From Planoprotostelium fungivorum (taxonomy: Eukaryota > Evosea > Variosea > Cavosteliida > Cavosteliaceae), in assembly GCA_003024175.1 (NCBI GenBank), contig MDYQ01000036.1:62001-126000 (forward strand): DNA of 64,000 nucleotides. Reading direction: 5' to 3'. Position numbers and translations under genes: made by a program. Under the pieces are notes generated by a model. The model searched no databases, had not been told where the DNA came from, and worked only from the letters and a program-made list of their open reading frames with translations. Shown here in pieces: positions 246 through 25,874 of this stretch. Positions within the stretch are counted from its first letter, which is position 1. Every line of letters begins with the position of its first letter.

Positions 246-3200
246 ATGAGACTGATCCTCCTTGTCTCTTTCTTATGTGTGGTGCAGGGAGATGTCTTTC
301 TCCCCTTCTCGAGTAATATACCAAATCTACGTTCTTTCTTTGACGGTCTTAACGGTAAACGACTGCACCACAACTTCAGAAATCTGATCTCCAGAAGGAA
401 AAGAATGGTTCAACTCGTCTGGATGGTTTCAGAGCCCCGATCCGTGCGATCAGAGCTGGTATGGCATCAATTGCAGCATCATCACAGACCGGACAAAGTT
501 TCCCATACCAATCCAAGTTGCAAATATCACCCTCCAAAGAAATAATCTGAGAGGGAGTATCACCTCCAGCGTGAGCGTTTCAATGATCGAAGAGCCGACG
601 TAATCATCACGGACAGATCCCCTTCGCCCCGCTGCTCAATTTGACTGGAAATGATATCGGTGGTATCGTCAGACCAGAGGCCATTTGGACATACACCGTC
701 GCTCTCGATCTGTCGATGGTGAGGTTCCGGAACGAGATCGAAAATCAACCCGATGCACAGAACCGCCTGGAAGGATCGATTCCAGACTTGTCCAAGTACA
801 GCTTACTCCAATATGCTGACCTCTCTGGCAACTATCTCAACGGAACCGTTTCATTCGACTCCACGACATCACCACTTCAATACCTCGACCTATCGGTGAT
901 CGTCACATCCACGTCAACATCTCACAGTCAAACAGAACAACAAGCTGAACGGTCAAATTCCCTCCAATTTAGGAACGGCGAACCTCGCGTTGGTGAACTC
1001 TATTTGTTTCATGTGATGATGTAACGGCTTCTGCAGCTGAATCTGTACAATAATCAGTTCTTTGGGGTCATACCTCCCTCTTTCTGCGGACTGCAGCATC
1101 TTCGACTGTTAGACCTGTCTTACAATCTACTCTTCGGAACGGTGCTTCTCTCACCACTTCACCATCAGACTCATCACCTTCTAGATCCCTTCGTGTATCG
1201 GCAATTTGACGAATCTGGAAGCCCTTTTCCTCCAGTCTAATCTCCTCCAAGGACATCTACCTCAGGGATTATATCTATTGAATCAGGTCAGTTTCACTTC
1301 ATCTCCAACATCACTCAATTCTGCAGCTGGCGGGCTTAAGATTATCACGAAACAAGTTCTCCGGCAGTCTTTCCACTGGATTGTCTAATCTAACAAATCT
1401 CGTGGTACGTGTTCATGATCATCGATCGATTCACATCAGATGTAGATGATCGAAATGGATGACAATCTCTTGGAAGGCTCACTTCCCGAGCTGACTCCCC
1501 TTCCAAACCTCTTGGCCATCAAGTTAACTCAAAATCGATTCAGCGGTTCTTTGCCAGCTTCGTTCATCGCTCACCCGCAGCTGAAAGAATTATCACTGAG
1601 TTACAACAACCTCTCGGGCTCTGTACCTCGTTTTCCAGGTGATTCTCTGTCTCTCACCTCCAGCTGACGTACGACAGGATTGACCACCCTGCAATTATTG
1701 TACCTTGATCACAATAACTTCAGCTCAGTCATTCCATCGGAGTACTTGTTAAGCTTGACCAATGTTCAAGTCTTCGGTGAGCCCGTCCTTCATCTACGAC
1801 GAGACTGAATGATGGAAGATCTTTCTTACAATCATTTCTCGGGCCCCGTACCATGTGAGACGATCGATCTTGATGTGAATCTGACGTGATCAGTGATTCC
1901 GCCATCGGTGAAGAGTCTGACTAAGGTCGTCCTGAGTCACAATCACTTTGAAGGAGGCATGCCACCGTATCTGGCCCCATATACGGGCCTGTCTTATCTC
2001 GACATTTCTTATAATAACCTGTCAGGAAGCCTCAGTATGTGATCATTCTCTTCGGAACTTCCAGGAATCGTCACTCATCGTAAATCAGATTCATTCATAC
2101 AATACCTCACTCAATTAGAGACAGTATCGCTGAGCCACAACGGATTATGTGATCATTCATTCACATTCATCTTCCTGACATCTCGACAGATGGCAGAATC
2201 CCGCCCCAAATTGGACAGCTCACTCGTATGAAGGTGATCATATCCACATCGTTCTATTGATTCATCGATGTACAGTCGATGGACTTCTCTCACAACAAGA
2301 TGGATGGTCCCATTCCCGCTTCTCTTTCAGCTTTGACGTCTCTCACCTTCTTGGATCTCTCTGGTAATAATTTCTCTGGTGTTCTCAGCTCTGACCTCGG
2401 TAAATTGAAACAACTGACTACGCTCGATATCAGGTTAGATATAATCAATCTTCTTTACTGATCGTGATAGTAATAATAAACTTGAAGTGGATCTGAAAAC
2501 AATCACGAGTCTGACGAACCTTCGATCTTGCGATTTATCTCACAATCTTATCTCTGGAAGCTTGCCCAGTAAGTATGCATGAAATCTAACCCATTCTGAT
2601 CGGATGCAGATGACATCATCAACATGACAACTCTGAACAGCTTCGTGGTGGCGGGCAATCAGATGAATGGAGAACTTCCGATGAGTTTCTATCAGATGCG
2701 ATCTCTGCAGTTCATTGATCTCAGCGACAATCGATTTAATGGTTCCTTCCTCCCTCCTTTATCTGCACCCACGGTCAGTATATCCACTCTTTCTCATCTG
2801 ATATGGTATTGTATAGACTCTGAATATATCACGCAATAACTTTTCGGGTGACTCACTCTTCCTCTCCTCTCTCACTACCGCCCAAGTTGTGGGTGAGATC
2901 ATCCTATACGTTTTCAGAGAAATACTCACGGCCAATACAGACATCAGTCACAATCAGTTCAATAGTTCCTTACAGATCGCGGATTTAGCCCGATTAGCTC
3001 ACGTTGATCTCAGCCACAATCAGCTGAGGTTAGATTCTCGTCTCTCATCATAATTCATATCTCACCCGATGATAGTGGCATCTTCCCTGTTCTCAGTAGC
3101 TTCGACCTCAATTATCTCGACATTTCGCACAATCACTTCAATGGTTCAGTGCCCTCGTTTGACCATTGCACTCAATTACAGTATCTCGATTTGCACGATA

Positions 3201-5119
3201 ACAAATTCATCGATGCGAGTGTTACCAGGATCCCCCCTATGACCTACTGTGATATGAGCTCCAATTCTTTTGGCTGTCCCCTTTGGTCTCCTCTCAAGAA
3301 GCTATGCCAGGCTACATGTGCGACGAATGGCACTATCGATCAAGAGGTCTTCATACGCATGAGAATCGAAGGAAGCCTCTCCACTTTCGACCGAAATATT
3401 TTCTTATCGTCCATTGTCAGTGCAACAGAGGTGACAATGTAGTTCGATCGAGGATTGTATTCATCCTTTTAGGCATCAAACGATCGTTTCGAAATCATCG
3501 GTGTATCTGAAGGTTCAGTCATCATCGATTTAGCCATTTTACCTCCAAATGCGAACAACGAAACCCAGTTAGAGCAAGGTCAGGCCTGAGAATTCATGCA
3601 TCATCTGAGTTCATCAGGTACATCCAGCAGATTATTGCATCGACTCATCAATACACCACAAGAAGTGTGGAGCAACTACTCCATTCAATTATTAGATTTT
3701 TCTCAAGTCCCCACACAAATCAGCCGCAGAACGGTCAGCGATGGAGGCATCGCCGGAATCGTCATCGGATGTTCTTCATTCATCCTCGCGATCATCGCTA
3801 CCGTTCTCTACTATCAATACCGAAGGAGAGAGAAGAGGAGGAAGAACGACATCGAGTTACAGAACCACATCGGTCGACTCATGCTGGAAGACGTTGTCAT
3901 AGAAGATAAGATTGGTGCGGGAAATTTTGGTGAAGTCTGGAGGGGACGATTGTGAGCATGCATCATGTATAAGATGTGGAACTGAATGAGATAGGGACGA
4001 TGGAACGATAGTTGCATTGAAGGGACTGAAGAAACAAGACGAAGACACCAAATGGATGGATGAGATTGTCCTCGTGCAGAAGTTGAACCATCCGAATATT
4101 GTGAGGATGTTGGGAGTGAGCAAGAGAGAGGACATGCTGTACATGGTGAGCTTCGAATCTCGCCATAGGAGGAGCTGACATCTGTGTAGGTGTTAGGTTC
4201 GCATTTGTGAATGAAGGAAGAAAGACTGAATGAGACAGAATACGTAGAGAATGGATCTCTGTTATCCTATTTAGCGAGATCTGACAAGGTGGACATTCTC
4301 ACGGAGGAGAAGTTACTGGAGATGGTGCTGGATGTCACGAAAGGGATGATGTACCTGGGGAAGAAGGGAATCATCCACAGAGATCTGGCTGCCAGGTGCG
4401 TCTCTCCTCAAAATTTTTATCGCAGCTGATCGAGATCTATAGGAATCTGCTCATCGATGCAGGCCACAACGTCAAGGTGATATCTGATCACACGTACGTC
4501 TGACATTGTCTTCAGATATCAGATTTTGGTATGAGTCGAGAGGTGGACATGTACCAATTGAAATCTAAAGTATTGCCTTATCGATGGACGGCGCCTGAGG
4601 TGCACTCTTCATCGACTCTCAGAACTGATGAAGTCAGGTGTTGAAACAACAGGCAGCTACGGCACAATCAGACGTGTGGAGCTTCGGTGTCGTCTGTTGG
4701 GAGATCTTCACGAAGGGCAGACGTATGTGACATCATCGGACGACGGACTGATGATCGCAGTTCCCTTCCCTGAATTGACCAACAAAGAAGTCATAGAGAA
4801 CACACTGAAGGGAGGGAGATTGAACAAACCACCGCTCGCACCGCAGCAATTGTTCGATGTCATGAGTCGATGTTGGAACATGAGTCCAGAAGAGCGACCC
4901 ACATTCAAGGAAATCAGATACACTCTGATCGAGAGCTTCCCTCAACTGGATGACAAGCGGTCAAGTGTTCTGGACGATTCGAACCATCAGAGGGCCTCTC
5001 ACCAACTGTACGTCTTCACCGATCAAAAAGATCTGAGCAAAGTTCCCACTGGAGATGTGGAACCCAGCTATCACTCAGGATTGAATGATGGTGCCCCACG
5101 ACAATACGAGAACGAATAA
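246..5119 (+). CDS. LRR receptor-like transmembrane tyrosine-kinase-type protein
   Basis: The start at 246 gives a clear signal peptide (MRLILLVSFLCVVQG). A short intron, about 355-394, leads to a plant-like LRR N-cap with the motif DPCDQSWYGINC. Some twenty leucine-rich repeats follow to about 3.3 kb, split by many 40-60 nt introns. A transmembrane helix (about 3745-3815) is followed by a basic stop-transfer segment. The kinase domain (about 3880-4950) has the glycine loop GAGNFGEV, the lysine in VALKGL, IIHRDLAARNLLI assembled across an intron, KISDFGMSRE, and LPYRWTAPE, then SDVWSFGVVCWEI. HRDLAARN plus RWTAPE is the classic tyrosine-kinase signature rather than the usual TKL or Ser/Thr form. 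The protein should act at the plasma membrane, with the LRRs outside binding an unknown ligand and the kinase in the cytosol. The tail after 4950 is short and polar. The exact exon chain in the LRR part is only partly resolved. Confidence 0.8.
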
Positions 5120-5236
5120 ACATACATCAACTAACTGCAGATGTGGTGATCCGTGCGATAATCCAAAAATTTCGTTCGCGCCATTTTTCGCACTACAACT
5201 GGAGACATCACATTTCGAGCTGATCTGATATCAGAG

Positions 5237-7083
5237 ATGGCCTTCAACGCACCCTCGTTTGGTGCCCCCGGCTCCCTCTTTGGTGGCAGTGCGCCATCAA
5301 GCACTCCTCTCTTCGGATCAACGGCCAATGCACCCACGTCCCTCTTTGGTGCCAGTACACCTGCCGCAGGTGGTTCTACGGCCCCACTCTTTGGTGCATC
5401 AACAACTGCACCGTCCACCGGTCTCTTCGGTGCTTCAACTGGTGCATCTGCGACTCCATTTGGTGCTGCACCGACGACCGCCACTCCATCTCTCTTTGGC
5501 GGTGCTCCTTCCACGGGTGCAACGTCAACTCCTCTATTTGGTGCGCCATCTACAGGTGCCGCACCGACTCCATCTCTCTTTGGTGGAGCTCCTTCTACGG
5601 GTGCACCATTGACTCCCTTTGGAGGTGCCACGACAACCACCTCTACGACTCCATTCGGTGGACAATCTACGATCAGCACACCGTTCGGTGGACAACCTGC
5701 TACTGCACCATTCGGTGGTGCCGGTACACCTTCCACCAATCCCCTCTTTGGTGGTCAACCAGGGGCGGCGACAGACATCACACTGGACAAGAATTTCATG
5801 GACTTGCCCGATGCATTCAAGAAACAATTGGGAGAGACACAAAAGATGATCGATGATCATCGAGCCAAGAGTGACATGTTGAGCTCGAGCTCGAAGCAAG
5901 GCGACACATTCAAACAATTGAAAACAGAAACGAGCGCACTCTTAGAGGTGAATCATCATTCATCTTCCACTCTTGGACATCGTCATCATGGATCACTGAC
6001 GATCATCTTTAGACGACGAGGGCTCTCTCCGTTCGTTTAGTGGGCAGCGAAGACACGATCTTTCACTTCAAGAAGGAAGTCGCCGACCAAGTGAGAAACT
6101 CGCAGACTTTCGCTCGGCTGTGGGACAACCACAAACAATACAAGAGCTACGCTCCCACCCCCCTACCCATACAGTGAGTGTCTACCACACCTCCCCTCCT
6201 GATCCTGTCATTCAGATACCTGGAAGATCTGATCACAAAATTCCACACGAGAATGGAAGAGAGCAAGAAGAAGATCGAAGAATTAGACGAACTCTTCCGC
6301 ACTCAAGATCATTCTGCACCCACTCCAGAAGGTGTCTACACTCTCTATCCCATCGATTCTCACACTCTTGACAGAAGTGAAGATGATCATGAACGATCAG
6401 TTCGAGATGCTGTTCAAGTTGGGAGGTATTTTAGGCTCTTTCGTCGACGTAGAGAAGAACCAGAGACAAGAGTACGTCGAGATGGTGAGGAAACATCCCA
6501 GACTCAATCCAGACCCCTTCCAATCAGACAACCGAAAGGTGAGAATCATCCACCTGCACTCCTTCACATCTCAATTTGAATGCAGGTGCTGCGTGAGAGA
6601 CTCTTAACTGCTCCCACGGCGTCCACACCGACCCCCTCCCTCCCCGCACCCTCTTCCACTCCCTTTGGCGCCCCATCGACACCTTCTATGACGACTCCAC
6701 TCACTTCTACCACCCCCGCCTCCACTTTCCCTTCCTTCTCGACGCCGACTGTCGGTCTCAGCACCCCCGTCACTTCGAATGCCTTTGGAACACCCGCAGC
6801 AACGCCGACCACCTCTTTCGGTGCACCTGCTTCGGGATTTGGCGCTCCTGCTTCGGGATTCGGTGCACCTGCTTCAGGATTCGGTGCGCCTGCTTCGGGA
6901 TTCGGAACACCTGCTACGGGATTCGGAGCGTCTACCACGGGATTTGGAGCGCCTGCATCGGGGTTCGGACAGCCACAACAGCAGCCAGGAGGGCTCTTCT
7001 CTTCTTCGGCTGGATTAGGACAGCCTTCGGCAGCAGCAGCACCGAACCAGAAGAAGACAAAAGCTGGACAGAGAAAGAGATAG
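5237..7083 (+). CDS. NUP58: FG-repeat nucleoporin NUP58/p45
   Basis: Five exons fit in frame: 5237-5947, 6013-6173, 6216-6331, 6375-6538 and 6586-7083, coding about 549 residues. The N-terminus (about 190 residues) and C-terminus (about 130) are rich in FG and LFG motifs, with repeated GFGAPAS units. The central helical part carries YLEDLITKFHTRMEESKKKIEELDELF and later FKLGGILGSFVDVEKNQ. This matches the NUP58 (NUPL1) coiled-coil core, which sits with NUP62 and NUP54 in the central channel of the nuclear pore. The C-terminus ends in a basic patch (KKTKAGQRKR). The gene starts 117 bp after the receptor kinase on the same strand. NUP54 or NUP62 are alternatives, but the FG-core-FG order and the EELDELF helix favour NUP58. 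Confidence 0.8.
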
Positions 7084-12339: not shown

Positions 12340-15248
12340 TTATTCATCTTCCATCGGTCTCCTCAGTGGACGCATGTCTAAGAGGGGATAGAGGGTGGGA
12401 CGACCTGTCGAGATCAACGGAAGGACAGGAGTGGATGTACCGTGGGCACACTGAAAGGGTGTCTGGCACTTTGTCAATTCTTCGATCAACCTCTCACACT
12501 CCTCTCTCTCCAGTGGCTGTCCACGTCAGACATCAAGATCATCAACATCAACAACATCAACAACAACATCAACATCAACAACATCAACATCATCAACATC
12601 ATCAACATCCATCGATGATGATGACATCGATGTGATCTCACATCATCGAATCGGATGGCCGTACGGCAAGCTCTGGAGCACAAGAGACGACGCAGGGGAG
12701 CTGGCACTTCTTCCCCCCTCTCCACGTCCCTCAGACACTCGAGCCAGTGGTCCCTCTCCCCCAATCGAACTCCATAGAGGGCAGGCACCCTCTTCAATGA
12801 GAGGACGTGACGCGTCGACGTCTGCTGTGACGTCACCATGATGAGAGATGACGTCATCACCCTTCTGTCGTTCGTCGTTCTCCTCTCTTCGATGTCATAG
12901 TGATAACCTGACGCTTCAGATGGAAGGAGAAGATGAGGCTCACCCCATGCTTCCATGTCCTTCTTCACTCGTGTCGATCGCCTCGCCTCTTCTGCAGTGA
13001 CGTCGTATTCGATGGAGATTATCTCTTGTCTTAATTCTCCTCTCAATTGTGCAGACAGTCTCTCCAATCGGATCCTCTCGTCGACGGCGTGTTGATCGAA
13101 TAAGAGTAGAGTGTCATCCAATCGACACAGAATAAACTTTCTATCCACCTGTGATCGTTTCCTTTCTTATTCCTCTTCTTCTCGGTCGTTATTCTTCACC
13201 TGGTTGATCACTCGAATTCGATCGAAATGTCTTCGATCGAAACTCATTCGCACGGGCTAAACTCAGTTGGATCTTGTCATGGAAGAGTGAAATGGAAGAA
13301 TAAAATGCTTTCGATCACTCACTCGTTCGTATGTAATACGTTGTAATAAGGTGTCGTGTTGAGAGACTTTGGCAGAGAAACAAGGATTCTTCCATTTCTG
13401 TTGTAGAATGAGACGAAGGGAAGAGGATGAGAGAGACTCACTTGGAAGATGTGATCGACGGTAAATCTCTTTGGAGTGGAAGATGAGACCATCTTTGATT
13501 TGAGACTGTCTTGTGGGTTCTTGTGCACCGCTCTACGCTTGGAATGATAGAAGGGAGGTGCTGAATGGGATCGGTGTCTCTTCTTGGATGTGACGCTTGC
13601 TCTCGTCTCTCTCTCGGCTCTCTCTTCTATCTCTGTCTCTCTTCTCTCAGGTGTCTCTCTTCCCTCAGGTGTCTCTCTCTTCTCAAGTGTTTCTTTTCTC
13701 TCAGGTGCTTCTCTTCTCTCGGGTGCTTCTCTTCTCTCGGGTGCTTCTCTTCTCTCGGGTGGCTGTCGCGTTTCCCCCGTGTGAATATCTAACCACCGAT
13801 TGACGATCTCCTTCACTTGGATCCAATCCTAAGAGGATCGTTTCCCTCCTTCTCATCACGCGACTCACGCTGAACTCGATCTTCGTCTTGTCTGGATGAT
13901 AAGTGATGTCATACATATCGGGAGAGCATCGAATGGATATGATGAACATCGGATATCTGATCGAGTCAATTTCACCGTGTGAGGTTGACCCTTCACCTCT
14001 GAAGATTCTTCTTGGGTGACAGAGAGGCTCCTTCCTTTCGTCTCTCTGATACTTTCAATAAGGATGACATCCTCGTGTTGATGATGTTCTGAATGACAGG
14101 AGACCGGATGAATCTACATAGTTTTGTTAGTGAAGACTCCATCGATAATTCGATCGCGTCAACGATCACCTCCTGTTGACAACTGTAAATGGTCAAGGAC
14201 GAAAGATGAATGAAATGAATGGAAGATCGTTCGTTTGGATACACATGAATTGTAAGTCCTTCGAGAAAAATCAGTCGATAGCTCACATGAATCGTCACCT
14301 TGTTGTGATGTCCGGTGGATAAGTTGGAAAGATAGCCAGTGATGCAGATATCATCCAACTCAGCTTCGACTGCCACTAGGCTCTCTGATCTTACCTTACC
14401 AAACGAATGGGAGAATCGAGAGACCACGTCAGGCATCTGTTCCTGAATCAATCTGAATGAATTTCCGTGCATCACCTTCGGTAGGTTCAATATCTGGATG
14501 TTCATCACTGAGGATACGGTGAGTCGAGTGTGATGATCTCTCGTCGTCACCTTTATCGTAGAGGGTGAAGGCAATATTCGGATGGATCAGTGCAACTCTC
14601 TCGAGCATCTTTCTGATGTCTTTCGCCTCTTGATCTCTCTTGATGTGTTGTCTTCTGACAGGTGTGTTGTAAAAGAGATCACTGACTCGAACTGCGCGTC
14701 GTTAACGTCATCGTGAGAGCCGAAAGGTCGAACTTGTTGTTCCGGGTGTTGGAAAAACAGATGACATTCTCTCTTCTTCCATCTTGGCTCCCTGTGCGAG
14801 ATGAGAAAAAGACAAACACAGGATCAATCACCATGATGATCTTTCTGAAGGACACGTTGGAATTCAGGTGGCGTGTGAAGATCTCTAATCTGGAAGTCTG
14901 AGCTATACTGCTAAGTGCCTCTCCTCTAAATCCAAAAGTCTGAACAGTGTGAAGACCGTGGAGGTCTGTGCATTTGGATGTGGCTATTTCGTCGTTCAGA
15001 TGGGGATTGTCCCGGGCGATCTCACCGTATCGGTCACCAATCAGTTGCAGATCTTCTTCTGTCATTCCACGACCGTTATCTGTGACAGAAAATGCCCACT
15101 CCTTCAAGTCAAAAGTTACATCCACACTGCTTGCCCCTGCATCCAGAGAATTCAATACCACTTCCTCGATCGTTTGGCAGATAGAAGGGAGGATGGTCAA
15201 ACTTCTTAGAGAATGACCTGTGTTATCGTCTAACGTGCTGATGGACAT
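12340..15248 (-). CDS. MLH3: MutL-type mismatch repair / meiotic endonuclease subunit MLH3
   Basis: The N-terminal GHKL ATPase starts at 15248 and shows EEVVLNSLDAGA, VTDNGRGM and TFGFRGEALSSIA, the MutL signature. The C-terminus has QVDRKFILCRLDD, then DQHAVDERIRLE, exactly the DQHA(X)2E(X)4E nicking motif. It continues with ACRTAIRFDD, spliced to PLEREECERLIEEL, then PFQCAHG spliced to RPTLYPLLDM. The last pieces match the MLH3 C-terminus better than PMS1 or PMS2. MLH3 pairs with MLH1 to process mismatches and resolve crossovers. The middle linker holds a repetitive Arg/Glu-rich tract (13640-13780). Introns are short except 12517-12641, which is filled by a hexanucleotide repeat. The stop is at 12340-12342. 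Confidence 0.88.
12517..12641 (-). repeat. Hexanucleotide/trinucleotide repeat filling an MLH3 intron
   Basis: The intron between exons ending AIRFDD and starting PLEREECE is 125 nt, more than twice the local norm. It consists largely of ATCAAC/CATCAA units (about 12537-12610, plus-strand reading). Translated straight through it would give a run of Leu and Met, which is clearly not protein. Its donor and acceptor restore the MLH3 frame exactly. Confidence 0.75.
13640..13780 (-). repeat. Coding minisatellite in the MLH3 linker
   Basis: On the minus strand, units of 18-21 nt encode repeated APERRE and TPERRE-like motifs, seven or so in a row. The tract lies between the ATPase and C-terminal dimerisation regions, where MutL proteins carry a disordered linker of variable length. 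The 5'-most units are nearly identical and the later ones have diverged. Confidence 0.7.
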
Positions 15249-15341
15249 GTGAGATCACCGAGTGCGAATTCACTTTTCTTTGGTTGGTTGTAGAATTAAA
15301 TTAAAATAAACAACTCGTTAATAATAGTACAAAACATCTAT

Positions 15342-17615
15342 TCATCTTAATACACCTGACCACTGTTGTAACTGCAGAAGAGCAGCCTCATATGTCGCTA
15401 AAGAAGATCAGACGAAAGATCATGTGGCATCATGAGGTGACTCACCTAGAGCAAAACCCTCCAGTGCCTCAGTCAGAAAACCTGGACAGAGATTTCTCAT
15501 GTACAACCATTGTGAATGCGGTGAAATCAGGTTACTATTGATCAGAACACATTTGAGCGCTTTGAGAATATCCTCCGCCGTTCTGTCTCACATCAGATGA
15601 TATCAGATGATGGAAGACCTGATCGTATGCATTGATGACGATGATGATGACGATCCTCACAATTGAGAAGAACCCTGAGTGAGGGCTCTCTGTATGTCCA
15701 ATACAACACTCGTCAGACAGCTCAGTTTCGTGTGGACGTTATGCATCTCGGACAACTGCTCCAACTTTCTGGTCAGCACGCCCATCGTCACCAGATGGAA
15801 ACTGAGATTCGAAGGCAATCCGAAAGCAGAACCGGGAGCACCTCTCCCTTCCGCCATCAACTTGACGATGAAATCGTCCGCAGATTGACTCTGTCGATCT
15901 GTTCAGAGGAGAAGAAGGAGATGTATATGGTACCTGGTGACATATGGTCTGCATCAGAACGTGGCCTGTCTTCTGGAGGAGGACTTCGGTGATGATACGC
16001 CACGCGACGTGGACTCCCAGGGTGGATTGAAAATCTGGAATCTTCTCCACGATCATGGTGTGGAGGAGAGAGACGAAGCGATGGAAATCTTGAAATGCAG
16101 CCACGCACATCTACATCGTTATCTCACTGCACGACCGATGGTCTCGATTGATTTTTCGAGTTTGATGCAAGTATGAATCTTCTTCACTCACTCTCTGATT
16201 GGTGGCGGAGTCTGCTGGTTGTCGGTTGAACGTCTGGTTGAATTGGTGCTCGAATTCAAAGACTTTCCTTCCCAGAGGATGAGACTCTCTCCTGAGATAC
16301 GGATCAGATGACAAGAACACATCATCGCCCATCCAATGTACATTCTCTCGTGTGAATTCATCTCACTCACTTCAAGATCGTCATCAGACTGGCCTCGGTC
16401 GTAGATTTGATCGCAGTGTTTGGTATAGTCTGCATCGACTCAATCTCCTCTTCCACCAATATAAAGGCCTCACCTGAGTCAGCTTACACCAATTATTGAA
16501 CAAGTAGGAACCGTTGGGCTTGGCCGCATCGACGTACAGATACTGAACGTAAAAGTCGACAGCTGCCGTCTTCACGTCCGTCTTTCCATTCAGTACCTGA
16601 TTCATTCAACTCTCTCCATACGATCCGACTCACTCTCAATATGACGGGAGAGTCCTTGGGGGACATCTGTTCTCTCGATGGATAATCATCGTGCAGCACG
16701 CACAGTGAAGCGATGGCCGCATTCGGTTCACCGTTTGATTTCTGGAGGGCGTTGATGATGATCTCTTGAGACAGGTGGGGGAACGCCTGGGAGAGTCAGC
16801 GACGATGGAGGAGGTGATGCGGAAGATGATGATGGATCCACCTCCGAAACGGTCTCGATGGGGGCTTTGACTCGAGATGCAGAGACGCTCATGGAACGAC
16901 CTCTGGTTTCTGCAGCCATGCTCATGGACCGAGTTCTACTCTCGGTGGCTAAATAAGGGCCGGCCGTTCTCGCTGAAACGGCATCATCTGCATCGAGTCA
17001 GATGGAGTGCATGGGGAGGTGAAGGGAAACTGACTCTGTACTGGTTGAAACGGAAGGCTGAGAGAGGCGGGTGGATTCCATGATGCATTAGAACCTCTGC
17101 GTTCCACGGAAGCAACTGAAAGAGATGAGATATTCGGAAGGTGAATCTTCACTCACAGAGGCTGGGCTTGGGTTGACCAAACTTTGGAGAGAGTGTGGGG
17201 CTCTGTGGGGGTGATTGATGGTTGTGTGGTATAGGAATTGGTTGTGCAGACAAAATTCCCTTGCTGATCAGGAGACCCTCTAAAGAAGGAAATGGGGGCT
17301 GATTTCCGCATTCAGGAATGTTGTAACCGTTTGGAAGACGATTGATGAGAGAATGCTGTATCGTTCCCTTGTCTCGCAGAGACAGTGCATAACTGTTCGG
17401 AACCGAAGATTGACGAATGAAGAAAGATCCGTCAGGCATGTGAGCTAGTTTCGACTGTTATAATCAATCTTTGTGTCTCTCGATCCATCAGCCCACCTCT
17501 ACCACGTCTCGGTTTAAATCAGGTTTGAACCATTCTGAGATGAGATCAGATCAGACATTTTCAGCGTGATTCTATAGGTCTATTCACCTCGGGTAAGCAG
17601 TTGTCCATAATCCAT
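15342..17615 (-). CDS. SH2-CUE-VPS9 protein, putative Rab5-family guanine nucleotide exchange factor
   Basis: Start ATG 17615 (MDYGQLLT). Splicing gives an SH2 domain: EWFKPDLNRDVVESKL, then DGSFFIRQSS with the phosphate-binding Arg, NSYALSLRDKGTIQHSLI and FPSLEGLLISKG. After a Pro/Ser linker comes a CUE domain, AFPHLSQEIIINALQKSNGE then PNAAIASLCVLHDD (about 16710-16800). The C-terminal third ends with VHTKLSCLTSVVLDIQRAL, AEDILKALKCVLINSNL and LEGFALATYEAALLQLQQW. This pattern matches the second half of VPS9 domains (TP-DKL-C, ADD-LP-L-YVLI, GE-GYYLT). VPS9 domains activate Rab5-type GTPases on endosomes, CUE domains bind ubiquitin, and SH2 domains bind phosphotyrosine. Metazoan RIN proteins combine SH2 with VPS9, and yeast Vps9 combines VPS9 with CUE; here all three appear. 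The central region (about 16110-16560) is unassigned. Stop 15342-15344. Confidence 0.72.
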
Positions 17616-17876: not shown

Positions 17877-20800
17877 ATGGTCGCTGATGAGGGCACGGAT
17901 GAAGCCTATAGTGCCAATTTCATCAAGGAACACAGCGGTGGATATAGAATAGTGAGCCTTCACAATGTGAACTCGCTGTGATTGAAACATACAGTGCCAA
18001 TCCAATGGAATAAGCCAGCAAGACTATCTGGAGCGGCCAGAGGAGATTCATCGGATAGAAATGATTCACTGGGATTTTCCTCGCATCGAGGGTGTCAGCA
18101 GATTGACTGGTGGGTGTTGATTAGCGGTGTCGTCTAAAGATACAAAGCACTACGGGAATTATGCATCCTTTCACAACAATTGAGCGTGATCAAAGGATTA
18201 GAGGAATGCGTCAATCTGGTGATATCGCATCTTTCCTCTCATGCTGAATGATGTGTTCAGGAATCTCTGTGGATTTGTGAGACAAACGTCGAACAGATAG
18301 CAGGATTGGACAACTGTCTCAAACTCCAACATCTCTATCTGTGAGTGTGTCGTTCCGTACCAACCATTGATTTTACCAGCTATTCCAACAAAATATCAAA
18401 GATCGAAAACATATCTCACCTGGTGAACCTCAAGAGCCTCTGGTTGAGCAGCAATCGTGAGTCGATGTTCATTCATCATCATAACAGACGCACAGGTATA
18501 AAGAGAATCGAAGGTTTAGAGAATCTAGTCAATCTAGAGTCACTCTGGCTGGCCAATAATCAGATCGAGAGATTGGGCGAAGCCTTGGATCACAACACGA
18601 AGCTCACCGACTTAAACTTATCGGCGAATCACATAGGTTATTTCAAAGAGATAAGCCACCTGACGAGGCTGCCGGCACTGAAGCGTCTCGTATTCAAGGA
18701 CCTCATGTTTGGACATAACCCCATCTGCAAGCTCGGAAATTATCTCACCTATATCCTATACCACTTATCGCATTTGGAGGTGAACTTGACGATCTGTACT
18801 TATATCTTACGTTATCAGATGGTGGATCACTTGCAGGTTACGGAAGAAGGTAGACAGAACGCAGAAGCTACGTTCATGAAGAAACAGATGTGAGTTTCCA
18901 CCATTCGATCCATCATGTGAACAAACGAAGGTATTACAACATGCGAATCAAATTATTGAACAGTAACGCGAGTAATACGATCGACGTTGGCCGTAAGAAA
19001 CAACAGATCGTCATCGATCGATTGTACGATCAATTGGGAAAATATGTGCAAGCTCAACGAGCGGTAGAACAACAGTTATCGAAATCCAATTCGAACGATA
19101 GGGTGTTTGATGATCATTCTTCATCGCTCAGCTTAACCTCAACAGGAGCAACAATTTAAGATCGCCAAGATCAAGGGGAGGATCGAAGAGAAATTAGCCA
19201 TCAAAGAACAATTAGACAAAAAGTTCCAGAAGTTTCAGAAGCAAGTGCTCCAATGTACAGAGAAAGACATCGGGTGAGATCACGTTACGAAGAGTAAGAC
19301 TCACCACTCCAGTCGAGTCGTCACAGAGTTAACGAGCGGTGGGAACATCCGTTTAGAATTAGGAGAAAGCCAAGACGTCTGGTTCACTTCTTGCGTCGAA
19401 CTCCTTCACTCTCGTTTCTTTCCTCAAGATTACAAAGGCACCGGCATCCACGGTGATCATCCGTGAAGATGGAAGAATGAGATGATTGACGATATATAGG
19501 TCTCCGAGTCGATCGAGTCATGAGAATCCACAATCGCCACCTCAGGAGACGATTCGAAAAACAATTGAAACCTCTCGATCCCGACGTTTACCGCAGGAAC
19601 ATTGAATACTTGTTCTTTGGTGAAGACAGCACTAGCGTGGGAGAGATAGCGAGGGTCGTGGAGCGAGGCTTCTTGTCTCCCGAGGAGTACGAGGTGTGTC
19701 CTTTCATGTGAGAGGTCTTTATCCAACAACGACAGCGAATGCAGTGGAAAAATTCCGTTCGTATGTCGAACAGTGTGTCGGCATTAGATGCTCTAAAGTG
19801 GAAGAGAGAAGAAGAGAAGGGAGAGGGGGCTGCGTCGGTGGTTCCGATGAAGGGAACGCTTATCTTGGTCAAGTTGTACACGGGCAACATTGCCAACCTG
19901 GAAGAATTGGGCACGCCACACAAGGCATCGATCAGCCATCGAGATTTCAAGGATTACGACACGGTGTACCGAGCGAAGAGGGACGATCCCAAGCAGAGAC
20001 AGTACTTTGTATTCAATCACTGGCTCGCCCTGCCCGAGTACATCATCGATTACCAATATCTTCCCACACCTTACGTGAGAATCACATCAAAGATCACATC
20101 AAAGATCACATCAAAGATCACATCAAAGATCACATCAAAGATCACATCGAGGATGACGAGAGATAGTCGGTGGATGAGAACGTTAAATCGTGCGCGCAGA
20201 ACACCTCGAGAGGGCAGGAGGACATCGATTTCGATGTGAGATTGATGAACCAAATCACGGAAGAATTCGAGGCGGATTCGTCCAAGTTGGTGACTGATGT
20301 CCGAGCGGAAGTCGAGATGGATGAATTACGCATTCCACCCTTCTCTTCACCTCTTCAAGTCATCTCAGAATCCTATTTTCAGGTGATGTGACGTCAACTA
20401 ATATCGATGTAGACACTTCGAATGGTATTGAACGATCGCAGAGGATATCGTCTAGTTTCTCAGCGATCGAGACGTTGGATCTGTGTTCGAATCAGATCAC
20501 GAAGATCGAGAATCTTTCTCTCTTGGTTAATCTGAAGAGACTCGTCCTCAGCTTCAACAAGATACAAAAAGTAGAGGGACTGAACGAATTGAAGTCGTTA
20601 GAAACGTTAGATTTAGGTGAGGTCGAATGTAATCGCCTGGAAAACTGATCGTGTCAGGATTTAACGAAATCAAGAGGATCGAAAGCGGATCATTAAGAGG
20701 ACTTAACTCCCTCACTTGTCTAGATCTCACCAGCAATCAGATCTCCAAAATAGACGATATATCACACCTACAAAAGTGAGAACGAGGAATAGAGGACGAA

Positions 20801-24121: not shown

Positions 24122-25874
24122 ATGTCTAACGGTATCATCTCCAGTCACGATGTCACGAGAGTCGTCTTGGAGATGGTCATGTCTTCAAGAGACGAACCCA
24201 CAAGGAGGACACAGTTTGCCGCTCTACGCCTCACGTGCAAATCGTGGAAAGAGATCGGTGAGATGCTCGATAGAAGACAAGCCCTTCTGATATTCCCAGT
24301 GGACAGCTTCACTCTCAGGCTGTCGGAAGACGATTTTCACGTGGCAATCGAAGAAGACCATGTCGAGTCGCTATGCTTCCTGTTGACTCACGAATCGTCA
24401 CATGAGCTCCTGGACCGATACCAATTCCTTTATCTTATCGTATATGCATTAAAGAATGAGTCTACCGACATTGCTACTACTGACTGCTACCAGATCTGGC
24501 ACAGATGATGTCGTCCGACTCATCTTGTCCGACCCGCGGATGAACCCACCAGAAATGGACAATATCGCCATCAGGCGCGCAGCAAAAAAGGGCCGTACTG
24601 AGGCTATACGGCTACTCTTGTCCAACCCGCGTATGGACCCATCAGCACAACGCAATGAGGCCATCAGAAATGCAGCAGAAAAGGGTCACACTGAGGTTGT
24701 ACGGCTACTCTTGTCCGATCCTCGTGTGGATGCATCAAGTTTGGACAATTACGCCTTCAAAAAGGCAGTCTGGAAAGGCCATACCGAAATCGTGCGGCTG
24801 CTTTGGTCCCATCTTCGTTTGGATCCGTCAGTACATGACAATGAGGCCATCAGAGAAGCAGCCCATTATGGCCATACCGAGATTGTACGGCTACTCTTGT
24901 CCGATTCTCGTGTGGACCCTTCGGCACAGGACAATTATGCCATCAGAAGGGCTGGTAACAAGGAGATTGTACGGCTGCTGTTGTCGCATCCTCGAGTGGA
25001 CCCATCAGCACAAGACAATGAGGCTATCGGACACGCAGCCTGCTGGGGTAAGAAGGGAATTGTACGGCTGCTCTTGTCGGACCCTCGAGTGGACCCTTCA
25101 GCACAGGACAATTATGCCATCAGAAGGGCTGGTAAGAAGGAGATTGTACGGCTGCTACTGTCGCATCCTCGAGTGGACCCATCAGCACAAGACAATGAGG
25201 CTATCAGACACGCAGCCTGCTGGGGTAAGAAGGGAATTGTACGGCTGCTCTTGTCGGACCCTCGAGTGGACCCTTCAGCACAAAACGATGAGGCTATCAT
25301 AGGTGCAGCATCTCGTGGTAACAATGAGATGGTACAACTGCTCTTGTCTGATTCACGTGTGGATCCTTCAGCACAGGACAATGAGGCCATCAAGCATGCA
25401 TCTATGAGCGGCTTGATTCAGACGGTGCGATTACTGTTGGGAGACGAACGAGTCAATCGATCCAGAAACAGCTTTGCCATCCGATCAGCGGCATTTAACC
25501 ACGCCAACATCCTCGAGCTGTTGATGTCTCATTCTAGAGTGCAATCAGCAGAGCAGATAAATACGACTAAGAGAAGATCAACGGAAGCAGCACACACAGA
25601 GGGGGAGCAGCTACTCGACAATCACAAGCGGCAGAAGTCAGCCGTATATCAGTCCTGTCTGTCAGTACATTCTTTGCAGACTATCTGTTTCTCTATGCCC
25701 GATGCAGCTCGTCGTATCAATGTCGTTGTGAGAGACGGAAAAGCACCAAATTCGCAATTGTATAACATGGGCTGGAACTGCGAGACATCAGTCTGCGTGA
25801 TATCATCCTCCTTGCGACGAGGGAAGAAATTTGAACGCAATGAAACGTTGTGCCACAGGATATATATGGAGTAG
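24122..25874 (+). CDS. Ankyrin-repeat protein with F-box-like N-terminus
   Basis: The N-terminus MSNGIISSHDVTRVVLEMV followed by LRLTCKSWKEIGEML looks F-box-like. From about 24480 to 25550 there are roughly a dozen ankyrin repeats of the form RLLLSDPRVDPSAQDNEAIR. The C-terminus (KRRSTEAAHTEGEQLLDNHK onward) is unrelated to ankyrins. Near 24450 the frame shifts by one: the first frame ends TAG-free but off register after YLIVYALKN, while the repeats continue from 24456 in the next frame. No good intron spans it, so either the assembly has an indel, the gene is slightly broken, or the repeat protein starts at 24456. Ankyrin arrays bind proteins, and with an F-box the gene would be an SCF adaptor; that is inference. 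Its closest relative in the window is the broken copy at 59863. Confidence 0.6.
24939..25292 (+). repeat. 177-bp tandem duplication within the ankyrin array
   Basis: Positions 24939-25115 and 25116-25292 are two head-to-tail copies of 177 bp (59 codons, two ankyrin units, one of them shortened). They differ at only a handful of positions over their length, while other units in the array are much more diverged. This marks a recent in-frame expansion. Confidence 0.8.

Follow-up and report, generated by a model that had tools for sequence, protein, structure and literature searches.

A spliced gene combining SH2, CUE and VPS9 domains, with altered residues at the exchange positions of its VPS9 domain

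Do an SH2, a CUE and a VPS9 domain occur together in one protein, and would such a protein be an active Rab5 GEF that senses phosphotyrosine and ubiquitin, as the original prediction for this locus had it? The locus lies in a window (the whole stretch of DNA that was analysed, 64,000 nucleotides, C289:62001-126000) from a host genome with small introns, sampled as 36.9 Mb in 471 contigs. The consulted sections of a survey of 311 Vps9 proteins (PMC6032885) describe the coupling of SH2 to VPS9 domains in the RIN proteins as an innovation of the holozoans, the exception being a possible RIN in Dictyostelium that has poor support. If the organism is outside the holozoans, the wiring of phosphotyrosine to endosomal Rab proteins would have arisen more than once or be older than thought.

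Gene structure and a diverged paralogue

The gene occupies 15342..17615 on the minus strand, from an ATG at 17615 to the last base of a stop codon at 15342, so the predicted boundaries fit the two ends of a coding frame. The splice model was made by hand and is accompanied by a full-length paralogue. It contains 13 exons, exons 1 to 5 at 17615-17588, 17534-17497, 17454-17157, 17115-17035 and 16972-16842, exons 6 to 10 at 16786-16634, 16596-16474, 16429-16371, 16291-16192 and 16110-15934, and exons 11 to 13 at 15890-15661, 15582-15446 and 15397-15342, all on the minus strand. These are separated by 12 GT-AG introns of 37-81 nt and give a coding length of 1611 nt, or 536 amino acids.

The spliced 536-residue protein was searched with Pfam, families being listed to E 10 and judged by per-family cut-offs. 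The SH2, CUE and VPS9 domains were all above their cut-offs and in the order originally predicted; one other family was listed, at E 0.19 and under its cut-off. The occurrence of the three domains together in one spliced protein is real and above chance. The stretch between the CUE and VPS9 domains, exons 7 to 11 (15771..16596, minus strand), is without a Pfam match and was aligned with the paralogue; 16110-16560 lies inside this stretch.

The genome was also searched by tblastn, with the spliced protein as query, and this found the gene itself, several places matching the SH2 domain only and one place on contig C47 that was matched over both the SH2 and the CUE domain (31% identity, query residues 23-218, E 2.3e-11). 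The splice model of this paralogue, L022 (G000:C47:182500-190500, locus positions 2202-5576), has 856 residues, and Pfam scores its SH2 domain at 39.7 bits and its VPS9 domain at 31.6 bits, both above the cut-offs. One 609-nt exon holds most of the SH2 domain and a CUE-like stretch; the Pfam CUE model had no match in L022, and at the CUE site there were only sub-threshold matches to HBS1_N and UBA. Residues 9-525 of the window protein align with L022 at 27.8% identity (E 1.35e-43), and the parts after the CUE domain, VPS9 included, reach a local alignment score of 250, where none of 500 shuffles exceeded 60. When the genome was searched with the post-CUE part of L022, the window gene came next after the exons of L022 itself, at E 0.003. 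Three of the 12 introns of the window gene match L022 in position and phase, and a fourth, in the VPS9 domain, lies in an alignment gap and is equal to that of L022 if the stretch is taken ungapped. Two diverged paralogues were thus found in the genome, the window gene and L022. The long C-terminal tail of L022 ends in a TPR-like stretch, whose Pfam score of 17.2 bits is under the cut-off of 27.8, and the last part of the tail is repeated just downstream, where the assembly has an ambiguous base.

The introns were picked by hand so that the frame remains open, and a 13-exon frame resting on such choices could have arisen by the wrong joining of two or three neighbouring genes, an SH2 or SH2-CUE protein and a separate VPS9-like protein. 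We consider this very improbable, as the coding exons are nowhere more than 81 nt apart, every gap is GT-AG, and L022 lies on another contig. The locus is one gene because the paralogue aligns along nearly its full length, has the same domain order and shares three of the 12 intron positions. The two-gene model was dropped on the strength of the short exon gaps and the nearly end-to-end alignment.

Two frames downstream of the gene on the same strand match the MutL ATPase (14679-15254, minus strand, 39.4 bits) and the MutL C-terminal domain (12486-13166, minus strand, 41.8 bits), and are presumably one mismatch-repair gene (12486-15254). By eye, the first methionine of the ATPase frame is about 90 bases past the stop codon of the SH2-CUE-VPS9 gene. 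A leucine-rich-repeat frame is found at 18345-18893 on the plus strand. Further away, at 24453-25874 (plus strand), a 473-residue stop-to-stop frame consists of near-identical repeats that look ankyrin-like by eye.

The SH2 and CUE domains

The SH2 domain (residues 11-70, 17311..17532, minus strand) spans an intron and scores 43.4 bits against a cut-off of 21 (E 3.8e-11). The prediction of an SH2 domain with the critical arginine was borne out, Arg36 (17413-17415) being found at the FLVR position, and Trp11, Arg18 and His56 are also present. In SH2 domains, residues of these types belong to the phosphotyrosine pocket or its surroundings. The top solved-structure matches of this domain were SH2 chains of p85 and PLC-gamma (phmmer, best 60 of 124 matches), and the kept pocket residues suggest that it would bind phosphotyrosine. 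When the SH2 domain alone was compared with phage records there was no match at E 0.01.

The CUE domain (residues 187-220, 16703..16859, minus strand) is split by intron 5 (16841-16787). The match is only 34 residues long; at 26.4 bits against a cut-off of 21.1 (E 5.3e-6) it agrees with the predicted presence of this domain. The ubiquitin-binding motifs of CUE domains are Met-Phe-Pro and Leu-Leu. By eye, the window protein has Ala-Phe-Pro, in which Met is replaced and Phe-Pro is kept, and Leu-Cys for the usual Leu-Leu. With so weak a motif, ubiquitin binding by this domain is uncertain.

The VPS9 domain and its exchange positions

The VPS9 domain (residues 437-530, 15363..15770, minus strand) scores 37.9 bits against a cut-off of 27 (E 2.5e-9), so that the failure to hit a VPS9 profile, which would have refuted the original prediction, did not occur. 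The original prediction of a VPS9-like C-terminal half holds for the domain and not for its extent, as the match covers about 94 residues in exons 11-13 rather than the whole half. In alignment A1, Glu476 and Lys480 (15561..15575, minus strand) occupy the positions of Asp313 and Pro317 of Rabex-5, and Phe516 and Ala519 (15396..15455, minus strand) those of Tyr354 and Thr357; the codon of Ala519 is split by intron 12. The catalytic Asp and Tyr are therefore both absent from the window protein, and L022 has Asp468, Cys472, Phe508 and Thr511 at the four positions in the same alignment. In the window protein Asp477 lies one residue past Glu476, so that a one-residue shift would place an Asp at the catalytic position, and Thr520 directly follows Ala519.

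As a control, eight other VPS9 genes of the genome were read by eye (L001, L002, L003, L004 with L008, L005, L006, L007 and L013). Asp and Pro are kept in all eight and Tyr in each of the seven that are readable there, and Thr is found in one of six readable. As aligned, the changes of Asp, Pro and Tyr appear peculiar to the window gene and L022 among the genes read, the change of Asp to the window copy alone. As Thr is rare in the control genes, its loss from the window protein says little.

A profile of four VPS9 sequences (window, L022, L013 and L001) matches plant VPS9a (2.6e-19) and Rabex-5 (2.1e-17), two of its four rows being ordinary VPS9 domains, so that the result is more useful for the alignment than as a test of membership. 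At the catalytic Asp position the plant VPS9a chain 2efc has Asp and the chain 2efh, an Asp-finger mutant, has Asn. In searches against solved structures, the window protein alone matched only SH2 domains and no VPS9 domain among the best 60 of 124 matches, and the window protein together with its paralogue likewise matched only SH2 domains and no VPS9 domain among the best 60 of 180.

The importance of these positions is known from other VPS9 proteins. In Lpg0393, changing Asp to Ala or Tyr to Phe each affects exchange severely, according to the sections of PMC4379102 consulted. RINL shares the four residues that are critical in Rabex-5, and its double mutants in Asp and Pro or in Tyr and Thr have reduced GEF activity, as described in the consulted part of PMC3264577. 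With Glu, Lys, Phe and Ala in place of Asp, Pro, Tyr and Thr, the label of Rab5 GEF given in the original prediction is unsupported.

Alternatively, phosphotyrosine and ubiquitin may recruit the window protein as a Rab5 GEF that is still active, with Glu and Phe tolerated or their effect offset by membrane recruitment. The clear match to the VPS9 profile and the Asp and Thr kept by L022 favour this, and the consulted text of PMC4379102 describes yeast Vps9 and Lpg0393 as GEFs of low activity. By analogy with these, weak exchange could matter, and Glu might partly stand in for Asp. We nevertheless find continued activity rather unlikely, given that the window protein has other residues in place of Asp, Pro and Tyr, which every readable control keeps, and that the Tyr-to-Phe change is by itself severe in Lpg0393.

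The catalytic changes could also be those of a decaying duplicate, the window copy drifting to a pseudogene. It has four changed positions against two in L022, as this would predict, but its frame is readable through 13 exons, the pocket residues of its SH2 domain are kept, and the Tyr-to-Phe change is common to both copies, and so predates the duplication or arose twice. Decay is an improbable explanation.

The reading that we prefer, with a probability of about 0.6, is that the window protein is an adaptor that reads phosphotyrosine, and perhaps ubiquitin, and carries a weak or pseudo-GEF VPS9 module. The SH2 domain would dock onto a tyrosine-phosphorylated membrane protein or scaffold, and the CUE domain would add affinity for ubiquitylated cargo or drive mono-ubiquitylation of the protein itself, as the CUE domain of yeast Vps9 does (consulted sections of PMC3764060). 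The C-terminal region that includes the VPS9 domain would then engage a GTPase of the Rab5 family (Rab5, 21 or 22). Nucleotide exchange would probably be slow or nil, because the catalytic Asp is replaced by Glu and Tyr by Phe, and Pro and Thr are replaced too. As a pseudo-GEF or coincidence adaptor, the protein would position or sequester active VPS9 proteins at endosomes or compete with them; with the chemistry of its switch domain changed, it may direct endosomal switches instead of activating them. As Asp and Thr are kept in L022, some weak exchange may persist there. Rab binding, the loss of exchange and the endosomal site are all predictions. More tentatively, the pair could be a family of pseudo-GEFs that gave up exchange and links two signals to GTPases of the Rab5 family purely through binding, having evolved independently of the animal RIN proteins. 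The two genes provide a natural test of VPS9 function once the exchange residues are changed.

Comparison with known VPS9 proteins and with the rest of the genome

The RIN family consists of RIN1-3 and RINL, which are SH2-VPS9 GEFs for Rab5 in animals and their relatives. The window protein resembles them in its N-terminal SH2 domain, a linker that is rich in Pro and Ser by eye, and its C-terminal VPS9 domain, and differs from them in having a CUE domain. It resembles RINL further in being without a Ras-association domain (Pfam to E 10), but the exchange residues are conserved in RINL and changed here, and RINL and RIN2 are without the FLVR arginine, unlike the window SH2 domain with its Arg36 (RINL data from the consulted part of PMC3264577). 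The RIN-homology (RH) region had no match in the Pfam listing of the window protein, a listing that may be without such a model. Membership of the RIN family was rejected on the missing Ras-association match and the presence of the CUE domain, the former being a feature that RINL shares.

In the fungal Vps9p proteins the CUE domain is C-terminal, after the VPS9 domain. The window protein also combines VPS9 and CUE in one chain, but its CUE domain (187-220) precedes its VPS9 domain (437-530), an SH2 domain is added, and the exchange Asp and Tyr are replaced; the VPS9 and CUE combination is described for fungi in the consulted sections of PMC6032885. Rabex-5 and plant VPS9a are alike in being matched by the four-sequence profile that includes the window domain, but both differ from the window protein in their exchange residues, and the A20-type zinc finger of Rabex-5 has no match in it (Pfam to E 10).

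In the same sections of PMC6032885 the CUE domain is described as a fungal addition to Vps9 proteins, and a UBA-like domain is reported in one amoebozoan Vps9 protein, along with further combinations. A full-text search of the literature for the three domains together brought up only this survey. The combination of SH2, CUE and VPS9 was not found described in the consulted text of PMC6032885, PMC4053784 and PMC4758236, or in the titles and opening lines of abstracts listed by literature searches, and a literature search for a VPS9 'pseudo-GEF' found none. The claim that the three-part combination is new is thus upheld as far as the domain order is concerned, which is unlike that of RIN or fungal Vps9, and for its novelty in print extends to the sources just named. 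The window protein is a new variant within the VPS9 family. An SH2-VPS9 protein of an amoeba may already have been published. Some SH2 domains of Acanthamoeba resemble those of the RIN family, according to the consulted part of PMC4053784, and related fusions may therefore exist there.

Six-frame searches of the genome gave at least 79 SH2, at least 16 VPS9 and at least 7 CUE matches, counts that are lower bounds because such searches lose split or weak domains; the VPS9 and CUE lists contain neither the window gene nor L022, and the SH2 list contains the window gene and not L022. At least 79 SH2 matches fit a sizeable repertoire for reading phosphotyrosine. In a genome search with the kinase family PF07714, 134 of 1388 candidates were scored and there were 169 matches, in which tyrosine kinases and other kinases are not told apart. 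Two short peptide patterns from alignment A2 were used to look for further relatives, with none confirmed among 116 pattern matches in a collection of genome contigs and none among 71 in viral contigs.

Among the 79 SH2 and 16 VPS9 matches, one pair lies within 6 kb on one strand, against 0.2 expected. This second SH2/VPS9 fusion, L013 (G000:C155:115500-124500, locus positions 2477-6438), was read as 1019 residues with an arbitrary N-terminus. In Pfam it has a VPS9 domain at 61.1 bits, four MORN stretches and two stretches of SH2 that jointly score 44.3 bits, and its VPS9 domain keeps Asp, Pro and Tyr, with Met in place of Thr. L013 shares MORN repeats and a C-terminal VPS9 domain with Alsin (ALS2), and it matches the alsin-PH model at 13.2 bits, under the cut-off of 40; its two SH2 matches set it apart and give it the look of an Alsin to which SH2 domains have been added. 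L013 and the window gene are not closely related. SH2 domains are numerous in this genome, and they are joined to VPS9 in at least two different ways, one with a CUE domain and one with MORN repeats. By eye, several introns of L013 and L022 have a string like CGTTGTAG(AT) at or near their 3' end, which is perhaps a splice motif of the organism.
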